Positions 6,182 through 59,122 of a stretch of 64,000 nucleotides of DNA are shown here, piece after piece. The notes beneath the pieces were generated by a model. The model was not told where the DNA came from. It made no database searches and was given only the letters and a program-made list of their open reading frames with translations. Every line of letters starts with the position of its first letter. The first letter of the stretch is position 1. Source of the DNA: Caenorhabditis elegans (Eukaryota > Nematoda > Chromadorea > Rhabditida > Rhabditidae); NCBI RefSeq assembly GCF_000002985.6, contig NC_003279.8, positions 10,106,001-10,170,000 on the forward strand, read 5' to 3'. A program made the position numbers and the translations under genes.

Positions 6182-8198
6182 CTATCGATTCGACTTGTTT
6201 CTATGACTTCCAACAGATTTCTTTGAAGAACTGTTTGACAATGCACGTGATTTTTGCTCTTTCTTTGACGATTTCTTTGAAGATTTCTTTGATGATGGGG
6301 CCTTCGAATGTTTTGAAGAATGTTTCGATGACGTTTTTGTGACTTCGCGTTGCTGAATTCCAGATCTTGATGACTGAAAATATGACATATAGATATCGAG
6401 GAGTCGAACATTTTAATTAAACCTTGATTGATTTTTTCGATGCCTTTTTCTCCAAGTTTTTCTCCGACTTTCTCTCCGAAGGAGTTTTCGTAGACTTCTG
6501 TGGAGTTACAGAATATGCCTTAGGAGCAGAAACTGGATCCGCTAAGTAAACGGATCTTGCATTATTTCCCGAAGTCTTCGACGCTTCTCCATATGTCGAT
6601 TTCCCAGTTTCAATGTAGATTGATCGAGGCTCTTGTGTTGGTGTTCTCATGGTGTCAACGGGTGGCGTTGTTGTGGATGAAACTTTAGGTGTCTGAAAAA
6701 TGTGGGTTTTATAGTTCCCTGAAGAACTCTATGGGAATGTGCGTGTAAATACTAACTGTAACGCAGAAAATAGGTGGTAGGCAGGCACGTACACCTGAAA
6801 CCATGCATGCCTTCCACGGAAACTCAGCAATCACAATAGTCTCACCTTTGCCGACCCATCCTTCAATTTGTTCTCCTTTGGCGCTCTCAATGATTTTTGA
6901 GAAGCAGAGCGTCTGACATTTTGAGCATAACGTGCTTCACTCGAACATTGACCCTTTTGACAACCTTTCTCATTGCACTGGAAACGGTCTGAATTTGCAT
7001 TTGGAGACTGAAATAATCTGATTCAATTGAAACTTTATTACTAGAATTTGGCTTACCACCAATAGCTTAGGCTCCATTCTCTTGAGTGCATCTGCTCTCA
7101 ATTTGCTCATTCCACGACTTGAGTCAATTTTCTGCGATGTTACACTTGAACGAGAGCTTTTTGGTTCACTGTCTTTCAGGATTCGGCTACTTTTTGCTGT
7201 TTCCAAATTCTCATCAGTCGATCTTTTGCTTCTCTTACTCATCTTACTTGACTTCTTACTCGGCACTTCTTCATTCTTTTTGACTTTCTTGTCTTTCGAG
7301 CTTTCACGTTTTGATCCTCTTTTGCTCTCCTTCTTCTTCTCCAATTCTCTAACTTTCTCATCTGTTGATCTTTTCTTTCTATTGCTCTTCGAACTATTAA
7401 CCGGGGCTTCAGCTTCGCGATCATCCTCAGGATCAGAACGATTGTCTTGCTCAGCACTCTTCTTCTTTTCAGACTTTTGCTGCTTCTTGCTCTTTCTGGA
7501 ACTATCCTTCTTGCTTTGCTGCGATTTTTCTTTCATATCTTTTGATTTATCTCTTGAGCTAGAACGTCTTGATCCTTCTTCATTATTGTCTCTAACACTC
7601 TTCTTCTTTTTCAGTGACCGATCTCTATCATCATAATCAACTGGCGGAATGAAAAGTGGTTCAGAGTACTTATGACTTTTCTCTTGAGAACTACGACGAC
7701 TATTTTTATCTTTTGAAATCTTTCGTTTAGAATCATCTCTATTACTCTTCTCCAAATTCCTTTTAGATCCACTTTTCTTGATTCTTGAGCTGTCACTGTC
7801 CCTCTCTCGATCCCTTTTAATCGATTTTTTAGATCTTGCAATTCTCTTCGACCGTTCCTTTTTACGTCGTTCACTCTCACGCTTCTTTCTTTTACTTCTC
7901 TGACTTTTTCTGCTCTTTTCCTTTCTCAACTTCTTCTTCCGTCTCGAACTCGACTTCTTCCGTTGAGCACTTCGACGCTTGCTTCGTTGCGATCTTTTCG
8001 ACTTGTTCGATCTCGAGCTTTTTCTGCTGTTTCTTGAGTTGGATCGTTGCCCAGTTGTGCATCCCATTGATATCATTGCTCCAGCGACGGTAGCCGTGGC
8101 AGCAAGACACACTGAAAGAGTCATGTTATGTCAGACAACTACACGTTTAACTTACAGCAGTTTATTGCATTATGAATTTGCTCCGGATGCAAACTCAT
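6182..8198 (-). CDS. Lys/Ser/Arg-rich protein with a hydrophobic N-terminal segment (573 aa)
   Basis: Five exons (8156-8198, 7057-8111, 6846-7007, 6423-6692, 6182-6373) join in consistent phase to give 573 residues. The start is set by a 44-nt intron: the first exon encodes MSLHPEQIHNAINC, and after splicing the protein runs into a hydrophobic stretch (LCLAATATVAGAMISMGC, about residues 15-32) that could be a signal anchor. The in-frame ATG inside that intron is therefore probably not used. The remainder is extremely rich in Lys, Ser and Arg (runs such as KKSSKKSSKK), with a short less-biased insert carrying cysteines (CNEKGCQKGQC) in exon 3. No enzyme domain is visible. Proteins with a short hydrophobic head and a basic Ser-rich tail are common among nematode spermatogenesis genes; that link is inference. 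It is divergent from the kinase at 8792, about 590 bp apart. Confidence 0.75.
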
Positions 8199-8791: not shown

Positions 8792-10557
8792 ATGAACGAG
8801 GATGAAAATAAAGGAATTGTATTTCAAGTGAGTTTATTCTACCATAAAAAAGTTTCAGCTTTCACTGAAATTTTCAGATTGCATATGAACTTCCCTCTCA
8901 ACAGCGTGTAGGCATGCAAATGGCGAATCTAAGACTTCATGCGAGGGGAGTTTTCAGTAATGTGTACAGGTATTTGACTGTGAATCTGAGGCTATTTCAA
9001 TCGCTTATTTTCAGAGGAACAATTTTATCTCCCGGGACAGAACAGGAAATTGCAATAAAGAAGACTTGGCCAAGTAATGAGTTAAAATGTCTGAAAAAAT
9101 TTTTACCACAATCTATTTTTAGAAACTCCGTACCGAAACTTCGAGCTACTTTTCTTATCTGGATTACGCAGGAAACCGCATAAAAATATAGTTCAGATGC
9201 TGTTTGCATTCTCACGGAACACCACAAGTGGAGAGGGATTGGAGATGAAACACTCGGTTTGTAATTGAATTTTTTAACTAATTTCAAAATTTAGAAATTT
9301 AGTTTTGCGAGTCGTATGTCTTCGGGTTCATGCCGTACACATTGCAAAATATTCTGAAGAAGACCCGTCTCGCGGAAGTTGATATGAAACTTTACACGTG
9401 GCAGTTGTTTGAAGGGATACGGTACTTGCAAGCGGTAAGTTGCAATCGGTAAGGCGGGACGGGGCGCCTCCTATTCGCCTCTTCACCTGCCCTCGCCATA
9501 TCGGCAGTCTTTTGTGCAATTTTCCGTCTGCACAACAATCTTTTATAACTTTCTTTCCATTTCAGCATATGATAGTTCATCGTGACATCAAACCAGTCAA
9601 TATACTTGTTGATGTTGACAAAGGAACTCTGAAAATTGCCGATTTTGGAAGTGCGAAGGTTGTGCTACGTGGCAGTAGTTCGACATCGTATCAAGTGACA
9701 CGATTCTACAGACCGCCTGAGTTGCTTCTGGACGCTAAAGAATACTATTGGATGGTTGATGTTTGGAGTGCTGGATGTTGTGTTGGAGAAATGATGAAAG
9801 GGAAAGTCTTATTTCCTGGAGCGTCCATAAAAATTATGCTGAAACTAATTGTTCAAGCTATCGGACTTCCATCGGCCAGAGATCTGGACTACATGAAAGT
9901 TTCGAGTATGATTGACCAACAATCAGCTGTTAAAGTTATTGGATTGAAAGAGGTAAGCAAACATTTTTTAATTCTAGTTCCAAACCAATTATTTCAGGTT
10001 CTTGGAACTGAGAACCAAGAATGGGCTGACTTCCTCGGTGCAATACTTCGTTATCGTCCACGCGAGAGGCTTCATGGTCCAAAACTTCTTTCTCATCCAT
10101 TTTTCGATCTCATTTTCACGTGAGTTAATCCTAAGGTATCCATTGATTATTTTCATAATTTCAGGCCAAAATGCACACTTTCCAATGGGCTTCTCGTCTC
10201 ACAAGTGATCACTCTCGACGATTACAAAACTGCTCAGTTTGTTTGAAATTTCTGAATAATTGATTTAGAGTGTGTTTCAGGAAAAATGATAGTACTTCTG
10301 GTAAACAGTATGCTGCCGCAATTCTACGGCATGAGATCAGATTTTCGTTGAAAGCGCCAATTGTTCACCCTCCAGCTCCGCCTGCTCCACCAGTTGTGCC
10401 CAGTAAGGAATCAAAGGAGTCGAAGGAAACAAAAGAAGTCAAGGTTTCCAAAGAACCATCGAAACTTGAACTGACAAAGCTTCCGAGTGCGGAGAATCAA
10501 ACGAACGTCACATCCCCGACAGCTGTCATGTCGCTCAAAAGAACTTTGAATGTTTGA
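8792..10557 (+). CDS. GSK3-like serine/threonine kinase (436 aa)
   Basis: Nine exons (8792-8827, 8878-8969, 9015-9073, 9123-9256, 9303-9434, 9566-9952, 9998-10119, 10165-10236, 10281-10557) join in frame to give 436 residues. Visible kinase landmarks are the catalytic lysine in IAIKK (K58), the helix-C glutamate (E70), HRDIKPVN (156-163), DFGSAK (177-182), an activation-loop tyrosine (Y193) followed by RFYRPPEL, and DVWSAGC. The DFGSAK and S-Y-x-x-x-R-x-Y-R pattern is that of glycogen synthase kinase 3. Differences from canonical GSK3: the glycine loop is degenerate (ARGVFSNVY), and the position of GSK3-beta Arg96, which binds primed phosphate, appears to be Phe69. The C-terminal tail is Pro-rich then Lys/Glu/Ser-rich. 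An AATAAA lies at about 10776. C. elegans has several such divergent GSK3 relatives; I cannot say which one this is. Confidence 0.88.
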
Positions 10558-44400: not shown

Positions 44401-47236
44401 CTACAGTTTTTCACAAAATGGGTGACTTGGATATCCGAATGTTTCGAAATCAAGTTGAAGACGAATCGATCTCTCAGAAGCCAAGTATCCAACTGAAAGA
44501 GTTGTGTTTAGAGCACGGGCGGTCTGGACACCACACACGGTAACCAATTGCTCGAGAAGACATAGACGCATCTGAAAATTGATTGTTACTTTCTGCTCCA
44601 TGTTTTCAAACAATAATTTGGAAAATACGTATCCAAAAATACTACACAATTTAAATTACTTTTATATGACTCTTTTTTGAGTGATTTTGAAGGCAACTTT
44701 CAGTCAGCAACTTGACAACTTTATTATAAAGTAACTGGCAGTTAGCTGCCAAAGTTTAGCAGAAGTAACAAACTTTTAGTAGAAAGTTGCAAAAGATTGG
44801 CTAAAAGTTGGTAAAAGTTGGACACAAAGCTGACAAAAATCGGCAACATTGCCAGAGCTGGGCAGAAAGTTACAAAAGTCTTGCAGAATGTTACAAAATG
44901 TACAATTTTTTTATAAGAAAGTTTTGACAGAAAGTTGCACCCAATTTCCTAGATAACTGTAGAGTTATGGCATTGTTCTATTTTAAAAACAACTGCTACA
45001 TCATCTAAAACTAACCTTTTTAAAAGCAAGACACTTTGATCCTTCTGCATAATTGATAAACTTCATTGTGTCTGTGAATACTTGTTCTCTTCTCTCTTTT
45101 AAAGATTTCACAGTTTGAATTGCTGAATTATATACTGAATTGATCTTGTTATTCACTTTTTCTCGAAGAACTGAATACTCGGAGATTTCCTGAAAAAAAC
45201 AATTGAACTTATTATTTCCTGGAGACCAAAATAACAAAATAGTATACTCCAATATAATCTTTTGAAACATGTAAACCCAATTTGTACTTGAAAGAAAATA
45301 AATAAAAACCTTTTCACAAGAACCCATCCATTGCTGAGTCTGTCCAAGACATGGATAAACTCTTGTCGCATAATCCTCTTCGACACATTCGTGCTCGAAC
45401 ATTTGTCTAAAAGGTTTAAAAATTCATACTTTCGAATTGTATTGATAATACCTATTAGCTCCATCTTGCATTAATTCAGCAATTCTTTGATTAGTTTTTT
45501 CTTCTCCTTCATAATAAAGACCACATTCAAGTTGCTGCTCGTGTTTCGCACACGCCTGAATTTTTTTTTTGAATTACAAAATCCAGATTTTTTTCAGAGG
45601 TCATAAAATGTATCAAACAAGCCTTCAAGTTTTCTATAATTATAAAACTCTACAATAAAAAAATACATACAAAGTTCACAACTTTCTTCATATCAACGGG
45701 CGGTAAAGTGACAAAAGCTGCGAAGAATTTGTTAAGCCCGATGGTTCTCAGAGCAGTGGCATCCGATTTTCGATAGCTTCTGAAATTTTACGTATGTATG
45801 AGGGGGGGGGGGGCTCAGAATTGTTTTAAAATAATTTATACAAAGATTATGTAAAAATTAATAAGGAGAAAATGTATCAATCAAAAAATTTTAAGAGGTT
45901 TTTAAAAAATTTATTGTTCCCGAGTACCTTTTAAAAAATTCAGAAGTAGGAGCCTTTAAACGTGTAGGTAAAACATGCCCCATTGTAATATCTTTAGGTG
46001 TCTATTCAACAAATGTCCTTAAAATTTGAAAAATCCAATTGACCACAAACCTTTTTACAACATTCTTTTCTATATCGGCTATCAATTCGTCATCAATTGA
46101 ATTGCATTTTTGTAGTCCATCAAGACATAGCAAATGTCTGGAAAATGAAATATTTATTAGAAATTCTCATCAACCCGCAAGATCAGACATCCACAAAATC
46201 ATCATTTTAGAATATACTTCCGGAAGCTTTTGATTCGAATGAGCTGGTTTTTTTTTTGAGAGAGAGAGCTCATCAAAACATAAATAACTAAAGTGAAGAA
46301 ACTACAAACTACATCACGGATGGGATAGTTGTTAAAACTTGTGACTTTCATAACTTAAAACGAGTATTTTCAAAGCAAAAAAAAAAAAGTTTTATTAATT
46401 TTTTTTTTTGGAATTTCTCTGATAAAAAATTGTTTTCTTTAAAACTTTACTGTGAGAACGAATTTTTTGAAGATTATATATTGCTTTAAAAAATCAACAT
46501 GTTTTTTTTAAATAAATGTGTATTGTTTCTTGGATTTGTTTCTAAATTAAATAAAAAAATTTTGCGAATTTCAAACGTTCAATTTTATTTTTTTCGATTT
46601 TTGATTTTCTCTGAAAAATTTCAAAAACTCTATTATTTTTACCGTGCTTAATCATAAATTCTGTGATTGTCTAGTGATCTCAGTGAACTTAATCGTCACA
46701 GTCAGCAGACAAAAACTGTAAGAAGTTTATGGAAACTTATTGTTTCTCCTCTGTTCCCCCTATACAACTAGATTTCCCCTCTATCATAACTACAACCTCT
46801 TGTGGTCATTATCATCGTTCCCTCAACGGAAGTGTAAAATCTTCACACTTTCCATTATTCCCCCTATTACTTTTTTGACGACAAAAGAAAGGTGAAAAGA
46901 TGATAACGTCATGAGATACGAGTGTACTATTTTTGGAAGATAAGGATTACTAAAATAGAAAATGCCTACCGATCTTTTGCCGAGAGACTGTCCAATTTGA
47001 TGGCTTGAGAATAGACATGACGAGCTGAAAACATTTGAAATTTTGGAAAACTGGTTTGAGATATCAAAACACAAATTTCAATGTCTCGCAAGTAGATTGA
47101 ACATTAATGAAGAACATCATTTTTTGGTTTGAACCAAAAATTTTACAAGTACAGTAATGATCAGATTTGAGTAAAACATTAAAAGGAAACTTATACTGAT
47201 ATGCCTGTTTTTGGCTCTTTTCTTGATTTTTTGCAT
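44401..47236 (-). CDS. Cysteine-rich protein resembling nematode DUF19/T20D4.11-type (278 aa)
   Basis: Eight minus-strand exons (47197-47236, 46970-47024, 46051-46137, 45671-45779, 45452-45555, 45310-45406, 45016-45189, 44401-44571) join in consistent phase to give 278 residues. Eleven cysteines occur in spaced pairs (LCLDGLQKC, ACAKHEQQLEC, HECVEED, YPCLGQ, GSCEK, SKCLAFKKMRLCLLEQLVTVC, PFC), a layout that reminds me of the secreted DUF19 family found in nematodes. The family call is moderate. The first exon is uncertain: the only in-frame ATG I found gives a basic start (MQKIKKRAKNRH) with no signal peptide, so an upstream exon encoding one may be missing. A run of 12 G lies in the intron at 45780-46050. 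Function unknown. Confidence 0.62.
45802..45813 (+). repeat. Poly-G tract (G12)
   Basis: Twelve consecutive guanines follow GTATGA in an intron of the minus-strand cysteine-rich gene. Long mono-G tracts can form G-quadruplexes and are known deletion-prone sites in C. elegans lacking the DOG-1/FANCJ helicase. Confidence 0.95.
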
Positions 47237-49013
47237 AAGGCTCAATTTCTGCAAACAATTTGAAAGCCTATTAAATCTGTCAAAGTTTAGCAGAAAGTAT
47301 CCAAAGTTTGTCGGAAAGTTTCAAGGGTTTGCCAAAAAATTGACAAACTTTGGCAGAAAGTTAGACAAGTCTGACAACGAGTATTAAAGTTTCCCAGGGT
47401 ATTACTAACTTTTTGTGTTGGAAAACGTTGTTTGTTGCCATTAGACTCCAAGAAGAAGAATATCAAAAAGATCGGAAAATTCTTTTTTTTTTAATTTCTA
47501 ATGTGATTTGAAAACGGCAAACAATTAAAAACTAGGTGGTCTATTTTGAGTCTATTTTGGGCCAGATTTTATTTAATTATGATATTTTAAAATTGTTTTA
47601 ATATGGACAATGTTGAGTATATGCATGGTATAAACAATCTGAAGAAAAAATACCAAACACAGTTTTTGGAGTAAAATTTTCAAAGTAAAATTTTCCATTT
47701 TCCAGGCACAAATTCTATTTATTTTGCTGGTCTTCAATATAATGAGATTTAGTTCATTGGTTTCAGTAGCTCAATAGCTCCTTCAGGATTTTTTCAATTC
47801 AAAATTATTTTCCTTCAATTTATCAACATTCAGTAAGTGCTCAAAGAAAGATGAATGATGAGCCATTAGTAATTTCTTCATTCATTTCTATATCTTCATC
47901 TCCTCGACTAAAAATATATGGCTTGATATGTCAATATCTCACGTAGAGTGTTTCTCTGGCTCTTCCCAAAAAATTTCATATTTTCTATATTTCTCTAATG
48001 CATTTATCACCCTCTCTCTCTCAACTACTATCTTTTTTCCATCCACATCATCATAAGTGTCAACCACCATTTTAGCTCCTTTTCCGCTTTTTTTTTCTTT
48101 TTTTGCATCAATTTCAACTCAATTCATTTTGATAAAAGTTCAGCGAGGCTTTTCTTTCTCAATTTCTCTTATAAAGATAATTAAGAAAAAGATTGGAACA
48201 AAAAAGTTAAAGGCCAATGACGTGCCAAGTGTAGTTACCAAATTTTGAAATGCAGTTTCTTACATAGAATAATATTGAAAAACTGATAAATTGTAAACAG
48301 CTTATTGAACTTCAAAATAATCAAAAAAAATTTCAAAAATTTCAAAATTGGTCATTTAAAAAATTTTCAATTTTAATTTTAATTCACAATTTTTTGGTTT
48401 CCAGATTTTTGGTCGAATCGAAAATTTTAGAATTTTCATTTTAATAACTTTTTAAATATTTTAAAAGTTAACGTTTGCGTTTTTTTTTCGATTTTTCGAT
48501 ATTCAAAAATAAACTTTAAAAACGTATAACATTTTTATAATTATAGACAATTAATTTTTAAACTTTTAGTTTTTAAATTTTCTGGTTTTAAATATTCTAA
48601 AAAATCTACTTTTTTTATTTTCCGATTTATCTGTTTTCTATTCATCTATCACACTTTTTTGAATATAAGGATATCCTTTATTTTTACTTTAATTGTACCA
48701 ACTGCCAGACTTTTTCATATCTTAATTTGACTTTAATGGATTTGGTTAGAAAAAATTTTAAGAAAGAATTTGAATCACGAGAAAGGTAGGTAGGCACGTA
48801 GGTAGACAAAAAAAGGAAAAGGAATACACGACAAAGCGTCTTATTTCTCAAAAACTATGAGCATCTCTTTTAGAAAAGTGCAATTAATCTAATTTTTCAA
48901 ATTCAAGCCAACCTTGTATTCCAATGATTTTTGCTGCTTCAATTTGCTGACTACTTGCTTTATGCCATGCTAGAAAAGAAGACGCCGATAGGGAATATTC
49001 AACAAAATAGAAG
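47237..49013. other. Intergenic region between divergent genes
   Basis: No gene is supported. It is very AT-rich, with long A/T homopolymer runs at 48.3-48.6 kb. It separates the minus-strand cysteine-rich gene from the plus-strand RSPH3-like gene and must contain both promoters, together with any missed 5' exon of the former. Confidence 0.5.
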
Positions 49014-52000
49014 ATGAGAAGAAGACGAACTGACCAAAAAGATAACATTGAAGAAGAAAACGATCGAATTATTGTTCTTCCTTACCAATCGTCTTCGTCT
49101 TCTTCGTCTTCACACACTGATAGTCGTATCTGTCGAAGAGGCGGCCGGGCGGCCCAATGCCCGCCTCTTGTTGTTGCGCCCGCTCATGGAACACTTCAAC
49201 TTGTACCTCTTAGACACACTTCGGCTCCGCCCATTCGTTGCGTTGCGCAGAGCTCGGCGAGCAGCAACTCCTCGAGCCGTGAAATGCGTCGTCCATCTTC
49301 GAATGCAACAATTAGTTCCGATTTTTTAAGAAAACCTGTTCAAATTACTGCCGATCCACGGGTATATAAAGGTTCAGTGTTTGCAAATAGAAGATTGGCT
49401 CATGATAAGGTTAGTTTTTATGGACTTTTTTTGAACTTTGTTTTATGAACTACTTTTATTTAAAAGTTTATGAGTAGTCTAGAAATCTATGTCGTGCCTG
49501 CCTAGAGCCTTAGCACTAGGAATGTGAATTGAAAGCTGATTTTTGTTAAATGTTTTGCTCGCAAAAATGTTTTAAAAATCTTTTCTGTTTCAGTTTTGCT
49601 ACATGCATAAATAGGATACAAATATTAGTTGAAAACTATTTTTTGAAATATTTGAAATCACATGAAAAACCCCATAATAATCTAGGCTTGTAATTCAACT
49701 TCCAAAATATTTCAGGCCCGTCAAGCGGAGCAAATCGAATCAAAAGAAAAACGATATCGTGTTGGTGTGATTCGAGAACAACTTGGTACTCTTTTGCCAC
49801 GTGTCCCAGTTCCTAGAAAAATCCATCAAACCTCTTCACTTCTTCCGCCGGTGTCCACTAAAACGTATGTCTTTCAATTTTATTTTTACAAGACCTACAC
49901 TTGAAGATGAAGTTTTCAATGTTTTTCATCCGTGAAATTTCCGGAAAAATGAGATCTTCAAGTTAGTGTACAGCTAGATTTATAAATTGATATACACAGG
50001 AAATCACAATTTCTGAGTCAGAATTTAGGAAAATAAAAACAAATGGAATTTATAATTTGGGAAATTCCCAAAAAAAAACAACCACACATTTACATAATCG
50101 AGGATTTTGAAAACTTTCATTCATTGTTCCAAAAAATCAAATGTTTCAGAAGATCAACATATCTACCTGAAATTGCTTCTGGTCGAACACTTCCATCTTT
50201 AAATGTTTCAATTGATAAAGCTCGAGGATCTAAATCGTTTGCCGCCGCCAGATTTATGCCGGTTTCTAATCAAAAAGTTTCAAATGGTTTGTACTTTTTA
50301 AAAATATTTTTGAGCACATTTGGTGCTAAAATTATCAAATTTCATTGTGAAAGTTTTCACGACAACCTCAGAATTTTTCAGTTCAAGTTAAAAATCAGAG
50401 AATTTTCAGCTTTAACCAGCATCTATTTTTAACTCCCTTGAGCTTAAGCTGAATTTATCGTTGTTTGGGTGCTAGCACACAAATTTAAATTTTCATATTA
50501 AACCAAAATGCGGGAACTCAAATTGTAATTTTTCGAAAACTTGAACTTTTCAATGTTTAACCTGAGATATCAAGTATTTTGGTTTTTTTTTGAAAAGTTT
50601 TAATATGATACTCGATCATTTTTTGTACAATTTTTTGCAAATTTTAATTTTAAACAAAAAATTTTTTTCAGGTGATATATTAGGAAATCCCCAATCTCCA
50701 GTAAAAGAGCCTTCTTCGTTTCCTGTAAAAGTCGTTGTAAACTTTGAACAAGCTCAAGGATCGGATGTCTATGGTGGTGCCACGTCATCGATTCGAAGAC
50801 ATAGTCGCCACGTGGCAATGTCACAGACTGCTACACCTCCTCCATCTTCACGAACAGTTTACCCAAATGTTGATAGTGGAGTTCAAACTGACGATGTACA
50901 TATTTCTGAATAGATACGAGCTTTTGAAATTAATATTTATTTTTCAGAACTTTGATCAAAAATTTGAAGGATTGGTCAAAGAGTTAGCAAATTCTGCAAT
51001 TGAAATGGCTGTAATAAATTTGGAAGTTAGTTTTTAAAATGTATATAATTTTTCCTATGTAAGTTAGATTTTCTATGCTGATCAAAATTCCAAGTGAAAT
51101 GTTACTTTAATTCCACTGGTATTTGTTCTATCGCTTTCAGTCGTACCTGCCTACTGCCGGGTTTCTAAATTTTCCTGTAAACTCAGTGTAGATTTACGTT
51201 CTTCTTCCTTGTTTCTTTAACAAATTTGTTGAAAATTTTTTCACGTGTATTCTGTAATATTTCTCTTAACTCCATCCGTCCCAATGAATTGTGGCTATTC
51301 ATTTTAACAAAAATCTTCTTTTCAGGCTGAGAACACAATCCGCGCGGTACGGAAGACAGCGGAAGCAACAGAGCATGAACTTCGTGCGGTCACGCGGAAA
51401 CAGAATATTGAGTCGGCGGATTGGAGGAGAAAAATGATGGAAAAGGTATATTAATATAGTTGGAGGTATTGGACATCTTTCATTGAAATCAGTACGTCAT
51501 GAACCACGTGATTTTGATTTGAACTGAACCTATAAAATAGATCACATGATGGTTTAGCGAATTTTCTTTCAAAAAACGTGGTATCATGATCAAAAAGTAG
51601 TATATCAGAAGTTTGATTTATTGAGAAGTCAATTATTTGAAACATATGTTAAGTTTAACAAAAGATTGAATGAGATTATTTTTATCATTTTGATACAAAA
51701 ATTTCAAAATAATGGGCCGAATCGGAGATTCCACCGGGGACCTCTCGTACCCACTGGACCATTCGGCTGGGATTTTTAACTTCTTTAATTTAATTTACTA
51801 GGTTTTTTTTGGGCGCACTGAACGATGTTCAGTTTTAACTTTTAAAGTTAAAATAACAATTAATTTCAGAATAATGAATTAGAAACATGGAAAGAACAAG
51901 AAGCGAATGCTCGAGAAGCACAGAAATTGGCTCAAATGACTTGCGAAGAAGTGACCAAAAATACTCTGGAAAATTTGAGAATATTTGAGAGAAACTCGAA

Positions 52001-52497
52001 AAAATCAATTGGATTAGACACAAGAGATATGGTTTTATTGAATAAGAAAATGACTTTAGTGACTGCAGGTACAATGGGATTACTGTATTGGAAAATATTA
52101 ATTTTTTAAATTTCAGAGCTTGAAAAAGACTTCTTTCCTTGGATATTTCATCGAGCCGAGAGGCTTTTCAAAAATCGATTGGCTCGGAGTCAATTAGATC
52201 ATAGTAAGCAATTCTTTGATTATAAAAACTATTGGAAATTTTTATATGTTACTGACCTCAGAAATGCGAGAAGTAAAGGCACATACTCTTTTAGATAGCC
52301 TCATTTCATAAAATAACGGTCGTGTCGAGACCGATTACCGTATTCCAGTCTCATGGCAATCGCATAATATTTCACAAAATAATTTGACTTTAATAAAAAA
52401 TGTCATACTTTAAATTTCAGGCATGATGAACGAGATTCGGCATCGGAGAGAACTTGCAAAACGAAGATTAATTAGTATGAATTCTAATGCTTTTTAG
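49014..52497 (+). CDS. Radial spoke protein 3 (RSPH3)-like protein (488 aa)
   Basis: Nine exons (49014-49409, 49716-49864, 50150-50286, 50672-50895, 50948-51025, 51326-51445, 51870-52068, 52117-52203, 52421-52497) join in frame to give 488 residues. Three blocks match, in order, what I know of RSPH3: DPRVYKGSVFANRR (114-127) like the DRRVVRGNTYA box; SGVQTDD then FDQKFEGLVKELANSAIEMA (about 296-323) like the segment containing the amphipathic PKA-RII-binding helix; and ELEKDFFPWIFHRAERLF (about 435-452) like the E-x-x-FLPWL box near the C-terminus. Between them is a Lys/Glu-rich helical stretch. The N-terminal 110 residues are Arg/Ser-rich and unconserved. RSPH3 scaffolds radial spokes in motile axonemes and anchors PKA. 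Nematodes have no motile cilia, so a retained scaffold role elsewhere is likely. A tRNA-Pro remnant lies in intron 6. Confidence 0.72.
51713..51769 (-). pseudogene. tRNA-Pro-like remnant
   Basis: In the plus-strand reading, AATGGGCCGAATCGGAGATT, GGGGACCTCTCGTACCCA and CTGGACCATTCGGC follow the ends and T arm of tRNA-Pro in minus-strand sense, but the 3' side of the anticodon arm and the D arm are missing. It sits in intron 6 of the RSPH3-like gene and cannot be functional. Confidence 0.75.
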
Positions 52498-54098: not shown

Positions 54099-55876
54099 CT
54101 AATTTGTCTGAGCTTCTTGATGCTCACAATCTTCCTGATCTTCTTTCTCTTCGCTTTCAGTAACTTCTTTCTGCTCTGATTCTGATTCAGCAACTGGCTT
54201 CGTGGTAGCTGGTTCTTCTTCTGTTTTCTCAGCTTCAGACTTCTTCTTTCGGAAACCAAACACCAAATACATACAGATAGCTTCCCATTCAGATTTTGAA
54301 AGTGTTCCCATCGTCTTGATTCTCTCATCTTCTGGAAATGCGTCGAGTTTAGCTTTTGCCTCCAGGTACTCGTCGTCGGATTTTCCACTGAGCTTCTCAT
54401 TTGGATACGTTTCAAGACCTGTCATTGATTCGAGAAGTCGGCGTCCTGGTTCCAACCATTTGTTGATTGCTTCAGCGAAATTATGCACGAAAAGAAGCTC
54501 CATGTCAAGCTCTTCGAGCAGGCTGAAATTTTGAATTATATGAATTCATTAATATAGCTTCTGATCAGAGGATTTTGAGATATGCGGCCTGTGACGTTCT
54601 GTACTTTTAAAAAATTTTCTCTGATCTCATCGTTGTGTCGAAGCTTTTTTTGGAAATTCATATAGAAAAATAGCCGATCGGCATTTTCACCCGCCATATT
54701 TCGACGTTCGTGGTAGCTTTTGAGCAAATGTTTTATTTTTTAATTAAAAGTAAAGTTACCGTCAGAAAGTACAGATATTTCTCTATTTTTTTATATAAAA
54801 TTCCAAAAAACATTCCGACAATGTGCCAAAATTATTATAAGTGAAGAAAACTTACTGTTTGACAAGTGGAAAATATGCCAGAAACTCAGGACAGTTGACT
54901 TGCTCATCGAGTGAAAAATGGAACTTGGCTCCGAATAGTGGAACTTTTCCTTCAGCCAACTCTTCCACGTTTTCATATGTGATTTTACACACCTCGTTTG
55001 CAAATTGACCATTTTCTCCGTTACGCATCGACCAACTGAAAAATAGTGGATAAATAAACGTTTCTATTCGAAATAATTACGATGGTTTTTAAGAAAAATT
55101 TGTATAAATTTTGCTTACACAATTCTATCAGCATCTGGAAGTGTTCCGATAAAAACTCCTCCGGGTTTCAACATTCCTACGGCGTTTTTTAGAAATATTC
55201 TGGCAGAAGCTTCATCTACAAACGAGTAATGCAAGGCGAACTGACAGCTGACCAAATCAAATGGATCTTTGTTTTCAATACGATCCTCCAGATTCTCCTG
55301 AAATTTTTGCGCTTTTTATTGCTATTTCTCAGTTTTTACTGCTAAATTCAGGATGAAAACTCACTTTTGTGCAATCAGCGACAATGAATTGAACAGTGAA
55401 AATGTTGTTCTTTTTATATCCGAACATTTGTTTATATCGTTCTTCTGCTTGTTGGATAGAAACATCGGCGACATCTGAACCGTAGCATTATATATTTTTA
55501 AAAGATTCCAGCTGTTCATACCTGCCATTACAACATCTTTTGCTCCAGCTATGTCCCATTTTTTGAGATCTCCTCCTTTTCCACATGCTAAATCTAAGAC
55601 TCTTGGATTATTAACGCCGTTATCGTTAACACGCTGTTTCGCATCATCTGGAAAAAACAACAGTTTTTTTCTCTAACTCAATTTTCGCAAAATAACTTTT
55701 TTATTTCAAACAGTAGAATATTTACAATTATTTTATAAATTTAATATCTTACTGATAAGTTGGCTCTTCACCCAGTTATTCATATTTCTCATAAAGAAAA
55801 TACGACTTTCTTTCCTGCCTTCGATGCCAACCTGTAGAACTTTGTTGTAGTGACTGGCCACTTCTGATGAGCTCAT
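54099..55876 (-). CDS. tag-72: mRNA cap guanine-N7 methyltransferase (380 aa)
   Basis: Six minus-strand exons (55753-55876, 55522-55647, 55365-55474, 55119-55297, 54856-55035, 54099-54522) join in frame to give 380 residues. The enzyme transfers a methyl group from S-adenosylmethionine to N7 of the cap guanine of nascent mRNA in the nucleus. Visible features are the SAM-binding motif VLDLACGKGGDL (58-69), FDLVSCQFALHYSF, GGVFIGTLPDADRIV, and the conserved C-terminal box LSKSEWEAICMYLVFGF shared with human RNMT. The N-terminus is short (NYNKV-type VASHYNKV begins at residue 6), so the long N-terminal activating region of human RNMT is absent. The C-terminus adds an acidic Glu-rich tail. The start is the first ATG in frame. 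It is divergent from the FAM192A-like gene, 512 bp apart. The symbol is from memory of this neighbourhood. Confidence 0.9.
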
Positions 55877-57742: not shown

Positions 57743-59122
57743 CTAGTGATGCTCCAGGATTGCTTCAATAGTGAACGATTTGATCGGAGCTCTCGGAGCA
57801 CAATTGAAATTCCATAAAGCTGTTGGAAAGATGGGAGGTGATGGATCAGAACCTGGTGAACCTTCCTCATCTGATGAATCTCCGTCCTCAACCTGCAGCC
57901 CCATATGACGGCGAACTTTTCGTTGTGCACGACGACGTCTGAAGTCTCCACGTTCGAAATCTTTGACACATGCAGGATGGACTGCCCAGTAATGACCCTG
58001 AAACATTTGAATTTTTAAACAACTGATGAAAAGGTTCTTGGCGAGACCCATGCGCGAAAATTCTCATATTTAGATGACTACATAATAACTGATGAGTAAT
58101 CAGAGTGTCCTTATTTTTACTTAACCTCTGAAAGCCGTGAAAATACTTGGTCTTCAAAAATCGACATCAACAGTAGTATACTTCCTATAGAAAATACTGA
58201 AACAAACCTTCCCATTTGCAGCTCTACCGGCTTTTACAAAACAATCATTCAATGATAAATTGTGTCTGATTGAATTCCTCCAGCCAGCTCCACGACTTCT
58301 GAAGTACGGATATTCATTCATTATCCACTCGTATACCTGAAAATTAGAATTTCTATCGATCTAAAGACAAGCATCCTCTTTATATTAAAAAAAAATTATC
58401 ATAATTGCATCTATATTTGCAAAAACTCAAAAAAACCAAGATATGAACGGTTTCTGTTTTTATTTCGAAAGTTTTATCAAAAAGGGTTTTACCAAGCGGA
58501 AAAAATCATAATAAAGCTCCGCCCATACATTGGTTGTCCTTTTTTGCATAAAACTTTTGCAAATATTTATTTATTCGAACTTTTCCATATATTTTTAATA
58601 TTCACACCAATATCATCATGAATATATTTTTTCATAGATTCGTAGTCTTTGGAGTTATAAATATACTTTTTGGTTAATTAGGTTCTTGTTGTGGTACTGT
58701 TGGGGTACTGTACGAGTACTGTAGCTAAATTTCCAAATTATTTAATGGCGTCATAGGAGAACTTAATTTGAGCTGATTTGGGAATTCCACATATTCACGG
58801 AATAAAATTTATGATTTCTACAATTTTCTTGGCTAGTGAATCTTCTAATTAATTCAGCTACAAAAACATGAAACTTCTCCTGAGCTACTACATTTTTCCC
58901 TATTTCCAAACTGTATTTTACCTCTGCTAGAACCATTTTCTTTTGTGGTGATGAAAGAATTGCCATTGCAATAAGTCCAATATATGAATGTTGTGGTTTT
59001 GGCTGTTGACATTCTGTTGGGCTCATAATTGAAGTATCAAAAGACAAAGGAATCATTGGAAATGGTGAATCTTTGAGTGAATGATTTGAGGATGATAGAA
59101 ACTGACGTAGAATTTCCTCCAT
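57743..59122 (-). CDS. fkh-10: Forkhead transcription factor (194 aa)
   Basis: Three minus-strand exons (58922-59122, 58208-58336, 57743-57997) give 194 residues. The forkhead winged-helix domain runs from about residue 42 ([15 protein letters not shown]) through the recognition helix [20 protein letters not shown] (85-104) to [12 protein letters not shown] (about 110-121), followed by a basic [12 protein letters not shown] segment that can act as wing 2 and nuclear localisation signal. The protein is short for the family, with a 41-residue N-terminus and an acidic Ser/Pro-rich tail ending in TIEAILEHH. It binds DNA in the nucleus; its targets are not evident. The domain opening KPQHSYIGL differs from the usual KPPYSYIAL. 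The symbol relies on remembered synteny with the two preceding genes. Confidence 0.88.

Follow-up and report, generated by a model that had tools for sequence, protein, structure and literature searches.

Radial spokes are known to relay signals to dynein, and the cilia of Caenorhabditis elegans lack spokes, dynein arms and the central pair; nematode sperm have no axoneme. According to published descriptions, spoke proteins assemble around radial spoke protein 3 (RSP3, or RSPH3) by means of RIIa and DPY30 domains that dock on it (PMC11779644). A block with the pattern NIM-x-DRRV-x-RGNTYA belongs to the part of RSP3 that is described as the axoneme anchor (PMC4901443), and the RSP3 helix carries RSP7, which resembles SPA17, and RSP11, the ROPN1L orthologue (PMC8339350). 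Here we analyze a C. elegans gene located at 49014–52497 on the forward strand of a 64,000-nucleotide stretch (contig NC_003279.8, positions 10,106,001 to 10,170,000; henceforth the window). On profile evidence, its product is very probably a homologue of RSP3, and the data support its classification as a strongly diverged nematode member of the family. Our survey of the literature on radial spokes and RSPH3 in C. elegans found no title or abstract that treats a nematode RSP3.

The gene comprises nine exons and eight introns, all with GT donors and AG acceptors, encodes 488 residues and ends with its stop codon at 52497. Splicing thus reproduces the start, end, strand and length given by the original prediction, which had been made from the DNA alone. 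The order of its blocks also recurs in the translation, with DPRVYKGSVFANRR at residues 114–127, SGVQTDD at 296–302, LVKELANSAIEMAV at 311–324 and ELEKDFFPWIFHRAERLF at 435–452. The prediction had further claimed a relationship to RSP3, and profile searches bear this out. When scanned against 24736 Pfam families, the protein matched Radial_spoke_3 (PF06098) with an E value of 3e-5 and a score of 24.0 bits, which lies below the curated gathering cut-off of 26.4 bits. The match is collinear and extends from residue 303 to 474 over positions 65–224 of the 229 in the profile. Radial_spoke_3 is the sole family with an E value under 1 for the whole protein, followed by DUF501 at 1.4; the two outcomes named beforehand as refuting the relationship, the lack of a significant profile match and a clearly better match to another coiled-coil family, are thus both absent. 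Residues 303–488 alone retrieve the same family (E 5.7e-5, with UDPGT next at 0.14), as do exons 7–9 alone (E 0.0048), and exons 5–6 alone have no Pfam match.

The relationship was also examined with hidden Markov models (HMMs) of solved RSP3 chains, built without the worm protein. A bait sequence was used to collect these chains from the PDB, first five and later six (8j07_E, 9fqr_Hf, 8wzb_D, 7jtk_E, 9y6s_8u and 9e5c_2i). The six-chain model scores the worm protein at 12.5 bits, placing the N-terminal block in a separate first domain (residues 111–165) and the remainder at residues 303–466. The nominal p value of 3e-6 is optimistic, because shuffled sequences reach this score more often: once in 5000 full shuffles, and 6 and 14 times in 5000 when shuffling is confined to windows of 20 and 10 residues, respectively. 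For the five-chain model, which gives 10.5 bits, the corresponding counts are 0, 17 and 34 of 5000. None of 2000 shuffles of residues 303–474 within the heptad register reaches the five-chain score. Among the 1168 frames of at least 30 residues in the window, exon 8 ranks first with the RSP3 model.

The blocks were then scored individually with position-averaged BLOSUM values from five RSP3 chains, over all six frames of the window and against 20000 shuffles. The N-terminal block, ITADPRVYKGSVFAN (DPRVYKG; residues 111–125, 49344–49388, forward strand), corresponds to IMYDRRVYRGNTYAS in RSP3 and lies inside exon 1 (49014–49409, residues 1–132), an open frame that ends at a GT donor. It is the top match in the window, with 18 of 20000 shuffles reaching its score, and is the counterpart of the NIM-x-DRRV-x-RGNTYA pattern. 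The C-terminal block is likewise the top match, and no shuffle in 20000 equals it; it corresponds to EVELDFFPWLMTEVDREL in RSP3 (DFFPW in the worm, DFFPWLMTEV in RSP3), and most of it is encoded by exon 8 (52117–52203, forward strand). It displays the E-x-x-F-x-PW signature of the RSP3 C-terminal helix, which is taken as the DPY-30-docking helix AH-D, reportedly positioned as in Sivadas 2012. A stricter test with one mini-HMM per block, 5000 full shuffles and 2128 short frames of the window again singles out the C-terminal block, whose score is reached by no shuffle and whose exon is first of all frames. The N- and C-terminal blocks lie in one gene, in the order of RSP3, and each is the best match in 64 kb by block scoring.

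Between these ends the resemblance is uneven. The following elements come in the same order in the worm protein and in RSP3: the D-x-RV-x-[RK]G element of the N-terminal block, a hydrophobic helix after an FD motif, a long charged helical stretch and the C-terminal F-x-PW helix. By contrast, the roughly 170 residues from the N-terminal block to SGVQTDD show little resemblance, and by eye the worm protein has no counterpart of the YLEEL/YLEEI, DRPxTP and GxD segments that the RSP3 chains possess. These residues are encoded in part by exon 2 (49716–49864), exon 3 (50150–50286), in which no RSP3 match was seen, and exon 4 (50672–50895), all on the forward strand like the remaining exons. Of the RSP3 linker, with its several QTD/TQT motifs, YLEEL, DRPxTP and GxDxxTQI, inspection by eye finds a single QTD; this is SGVQTDD at the end of exon 4 (50875–50895), comparable to the QTD/QTE of RSP3 chains. 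Exon 5 (50948–51025, residues 303–328) holds the segment that the HMM aligns with the amphipathic, RII-binding helix of RSP3. Exons 6 (51326–51445) and 7 (51870–52068) encode charged helix within the Radial_spoke_3 match, which read by eye is probably a coiled coil, and exon 9 (52421–52497) carries the stop codon.

Several results weigh against this assignment and would favor an unrelated nematode coiled-coil protein that resembles RSP3 by chance. Besides the score under the Pfam cut-off, residues 1–302 have no Pfam match up to E 10. An hhalign comparison with the five-chain alignment gives a probability of 16.7% (E 0.0015), with a meaningless alignment in global mode, and a phmmer search of the PDB with the whole protein retrieves no RSP3 chain at E values of 10 or less. 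In the stricter test, significance is reached by neither the N-terminal block (474 of 5000 shuffles) nor the middle-helix block (452 of 5000), and each is outscored by at least 4 of the 2128 frames; with block scoring, 3674 of 20000 shuffles reach the middle-helix score, which is also exceeded elsewhere in the window. Both genome searches missed the present gene. The one with the PF06098 profile (E 0.001) had no matches at all, because exons were scored one at a time. The other, with 159 residues of the 8j07 RSPH3 chain, had a lone match on chromosome IV (E 0.42), a lysine-rich frame beside RING-like sequence that was dismissed as chance. Nonetheless, a fortuitous resemblance is very unlikely, given a single family under E 1 among 24736, the failure of every heptad-register shuffle to reach the observed score, and two terminal blocks that are both the best in the window and correctly ordered.

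The original prediction had emphasized anchoring of protein kinase A (PKA) by the middle helix, an emphasis that the data do not support. The helix aligns in place with the RIIa-docking helix of RSP3, but of the three blocks it shows the weakest conservation and is not significant on its own; the case for PKA thus hangs on the least secure part of the protein. RSP3 is now regarded as docking RSP7 and RSP11, and PKA was never found in the spoke by proteomics (PMC8339350). The mammalian axonemal PKA holoenzyme is assigned to the head of spoke RS3 and not to RSPH3 (PMC11779644). A PKA role for RSP3 is still defended (PMC12760996), and PKA subunit levels are altered in Tetrahymena RSP3B and RSP3C mutants (PMC12399478). 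In the Chlamydomonas 388 mutant, valine and leucine at positions 169–170 of RSP3 are changed to alanines (PMC12760996); this site aligns with A319–I320 of the worm protein, and non-polar residues are therefore kept there.

It is conceivable that the worm protein anchors KIN-2/KIN-1 as an A-kinase anchoring protein, with the middle helix binding the PKA regulatory subunit. Two overlapping segments of exon 5, ANSAIEMAVINL and VKELANSAIEMA, fit an RII-binding pattern, which 1.7% of whole-protein shuffles match in the same 28-residue window; in the Chlamydomonas RSP3 chain a match overlaps the helix as well, and the worm kin-2 gene has an RIIa domain above the cut-off. Of the five RSP3 chains scanned, however, four lack the pattern at their helix, and it is therefore not diagnostic. 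The hydrophobic moment was tried as a helix test and dropped, as genuine RSP3 helices score low too. The poor conservation of the helix, the RSP7/RSP11 docking and RS3 assignments cited above and an SPA17-like competitor encoded in the genome also speak against PKA anchoring, which we consider unlikely. A SPA17-like protein is the likely client of the middle helix, and together with NME5 such an RIIa protein would be a more natural ligand than PKA.

Because RSPH3 is the docking site of RIIa and DPY30 domains in spokes, the whole genome was searched for both, exon by exon. The RIIa profile yields three matches, two of them above the cut-off, on chromosome X at 5.98 Mb, presumably kin-2, and at 0.84 Mb. 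The second belongs to a gene (contig 6, 838306–841490, reverse strand) that splices into a 210-residue protein with an RIIa domain (Pfam E 2.5e-15) and three IQ motifs. Its closest solved chains are Sp17 of 9fqr and 8j07 (E 3.1e-8 and 5.9e-8), and further ones among the 25 solved matches are RSP23, over the IQ part, SPA17 (7my4), RSP7 (7.9e-4) and RSP11 (0.018). An N-terminal RIIa domain followed by IQ, as found here, is the SPA17 type of arrangement. The X-linked product thus resembles the SPA17/ROPN1L-type R2D2 proteins in its RIIa and IQ elements, and differs from them in having three IQ motifs.

Of the four Dpy-30 matches, two are above the cut-off, one on chromosome V, which we take to be dpy-30, and one on chromosome IV at 7.51 Mb. 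The latter is in R05G6.5 (contig 4, 7508583–7509475, forward strand), in which an NDK domain precedes the Dpy-30 domain. The nearest chains are NME5 of 9fqr, 8wzb and 8j07, the best being that of 9fqr with an E value of 5.7e-12 over residues 16–183. The Dpy-30 domain is well kept (65.9 bits, E 2.6e-18), and the NDK domain has decayed to 13.1 bits against a Pfam cut-off of 27. The alignment does not retain the HGS stretch of NME5, presumably its catalytic motif. R05G6.5 is therefore similar to NME5/RSP23 in domain order but different in its decayed NDK part, as if docking was what mattered. The gene has been published as C. elegans Nme5, with table coordinates that are 16 bases off the present ones at both ends (PMC2978717). 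A weak, split Dpy-30-like match below the cut-off in an ankyrin-repeat gene (contig 3, near 3747634–3748331, reverse strand) was set aside.

RSPH3, Sp17 and NME5 occur together as chains in the solved entries 8j07 and 9fqr. What is new is that one genome encodes SPA17-like and NME5-like proteins along with an RSP3 homologue; we found no paper that combines RSPH3 with NME5 and SPA17. Our preferred explanation, to which we give slightly less than even confidence, is that these proteins form a reduced, headless stalk module that would act independently of motility as a calmodulin-responsive scaffold in sensory cilia. Of the scaffold, the worm protein would have retained the N-terminal block at one end and, at the other, the C-terminal helix (the DPY-30-docking one in RSP3), as well as a hydrophobic helix at the RIIa-docking position; most of the conserved linker in between would have been lost. 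The worm RSP3 would dimerize through its helical part, with its middle helix holding the SPA17-like protein and its C-terminal helix the NME5-like protein, and this trio would constitute a minimal spoke stalk without a head. The module may sit on the doublet microtubules of sensory cilia, where it would serve as a scaffold responsive to calmodulin, a link suggested by the IQ motifs of the SPA17-like protein, and not in the control of dynein. Retention of the RSP3 ends and of the NME5 docking domain is the pattern expected if the docking interface, and not enzyme activity or motility, was selected. The fuller proposal, that an animal with no motile axoneme anywhere keeps a headless stalk with SPA17-like and NME5-like clients and uses it in its immotile sensory cilia as a scaffold responsive to calcium, is more tentative still.

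The proposed ciliary site has a precedent in Drosophila. Chordotonal neurons, with spokeless 9+0 cilia, express the RSPH3 homologue CG32392, and its knockdown affects them according to the text of the paper (PMC6367277). CG32392 is, like the worm gene, an ecdysozoan RSP3 relative proposed to act without spokes; the two are likened by description, and chordotonal cilia have dynein arms and motility, unlike the sensory cilia of C. elegans (PMC6367277). Two tabulated points in that paper count against the ciliary module. The phenotype of CG32392 is listed as "not determined", at odds with the text, and most other tabulated spoke genes, NME5 and ROPN1L included, are testis-only, with RSPH3 in both testis and chordotonal neurons (PMC6367277). 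RSP3 alone, and not the trio, may thus persist.

Promoter sequences add a further point on the negative side, as no X-box-like site with up to one mismatch is found at 46883–49808, a range that reaches over 2 kb upstream of the ATG. The scanned stretches of the partner genes hold one site with one mismatch, approximately the chance rate. DAF-19 control through an X-box was considered and rejected, because none of the three genes has a convincing site in the sequence scanned. The missing X-box and the testis-only Drosophila genes, NME5 among them, together with the testis expression of RSPH3 (PMC6367277), are consistent with a true RSP3 homologue that acts in the male germ line or amoeboid sperm, or in another non-ciliary place, as part of an SPA17–NME5–RSP3 sperm scaffold. 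Against this, and in favor of the ciliary site, R05G6.5 is termed neuron-enriched, with a mention of BAG, in one infection transcriptome paper (PMC5684781). The sperm scaffold also has to be reconciled with sperm that lack an axoneme, and we regard it as somewhat unlikely.

Exon-wise genome searches of the type that missed the present gene gave no match to the Radial_spoke heads (RSP4/6) or to CFAP91, and two matches to GAS, both below the cut-off. Since the present gene escaped the same type of search, the empty spoke-head and CFAP91 results and the weak GAS matches are not proof of absence. DM10, a domain known from EFHC1-type proteins, has a single match in the genome, with 74 bits (contig 6, 10358949–10359290, forward strand), which may be a further remnant of axonemal protein families.

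Elsewhere in the window, the downstream neighbor at 54099–54545 on the reverse strand encodes the last part of an mRNA cap (guanine-N7) methyltransferase, and a forkhead-type motif at 58276, also on the reverse strand, probably marks a forkhead gene. An exon at 9413–10123 (forward strand) encodes a protein kinase domain (Pkinase, E 4.9e-32), and a 386-residue open frame at 6970–8130 (reverse strand), very rich in lysine, arginine, serine and glutamate, matches no Pfam family at E 0.01 or below.

A match slightly below a curated cut-off, such as the one described here, may easily be overlooked by automatic annotation. If the core of a spoke persists without dynein arms, a central pair or motility, then the scaffold must serve another role. 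The stalk would have a function independent of motility and old enough to outlive it, which would fit the expression of RSPH3 in the spokeless sensory cilia of the fly. C. elegans would then be a convenient animal in which to find this other role of the scaffold.

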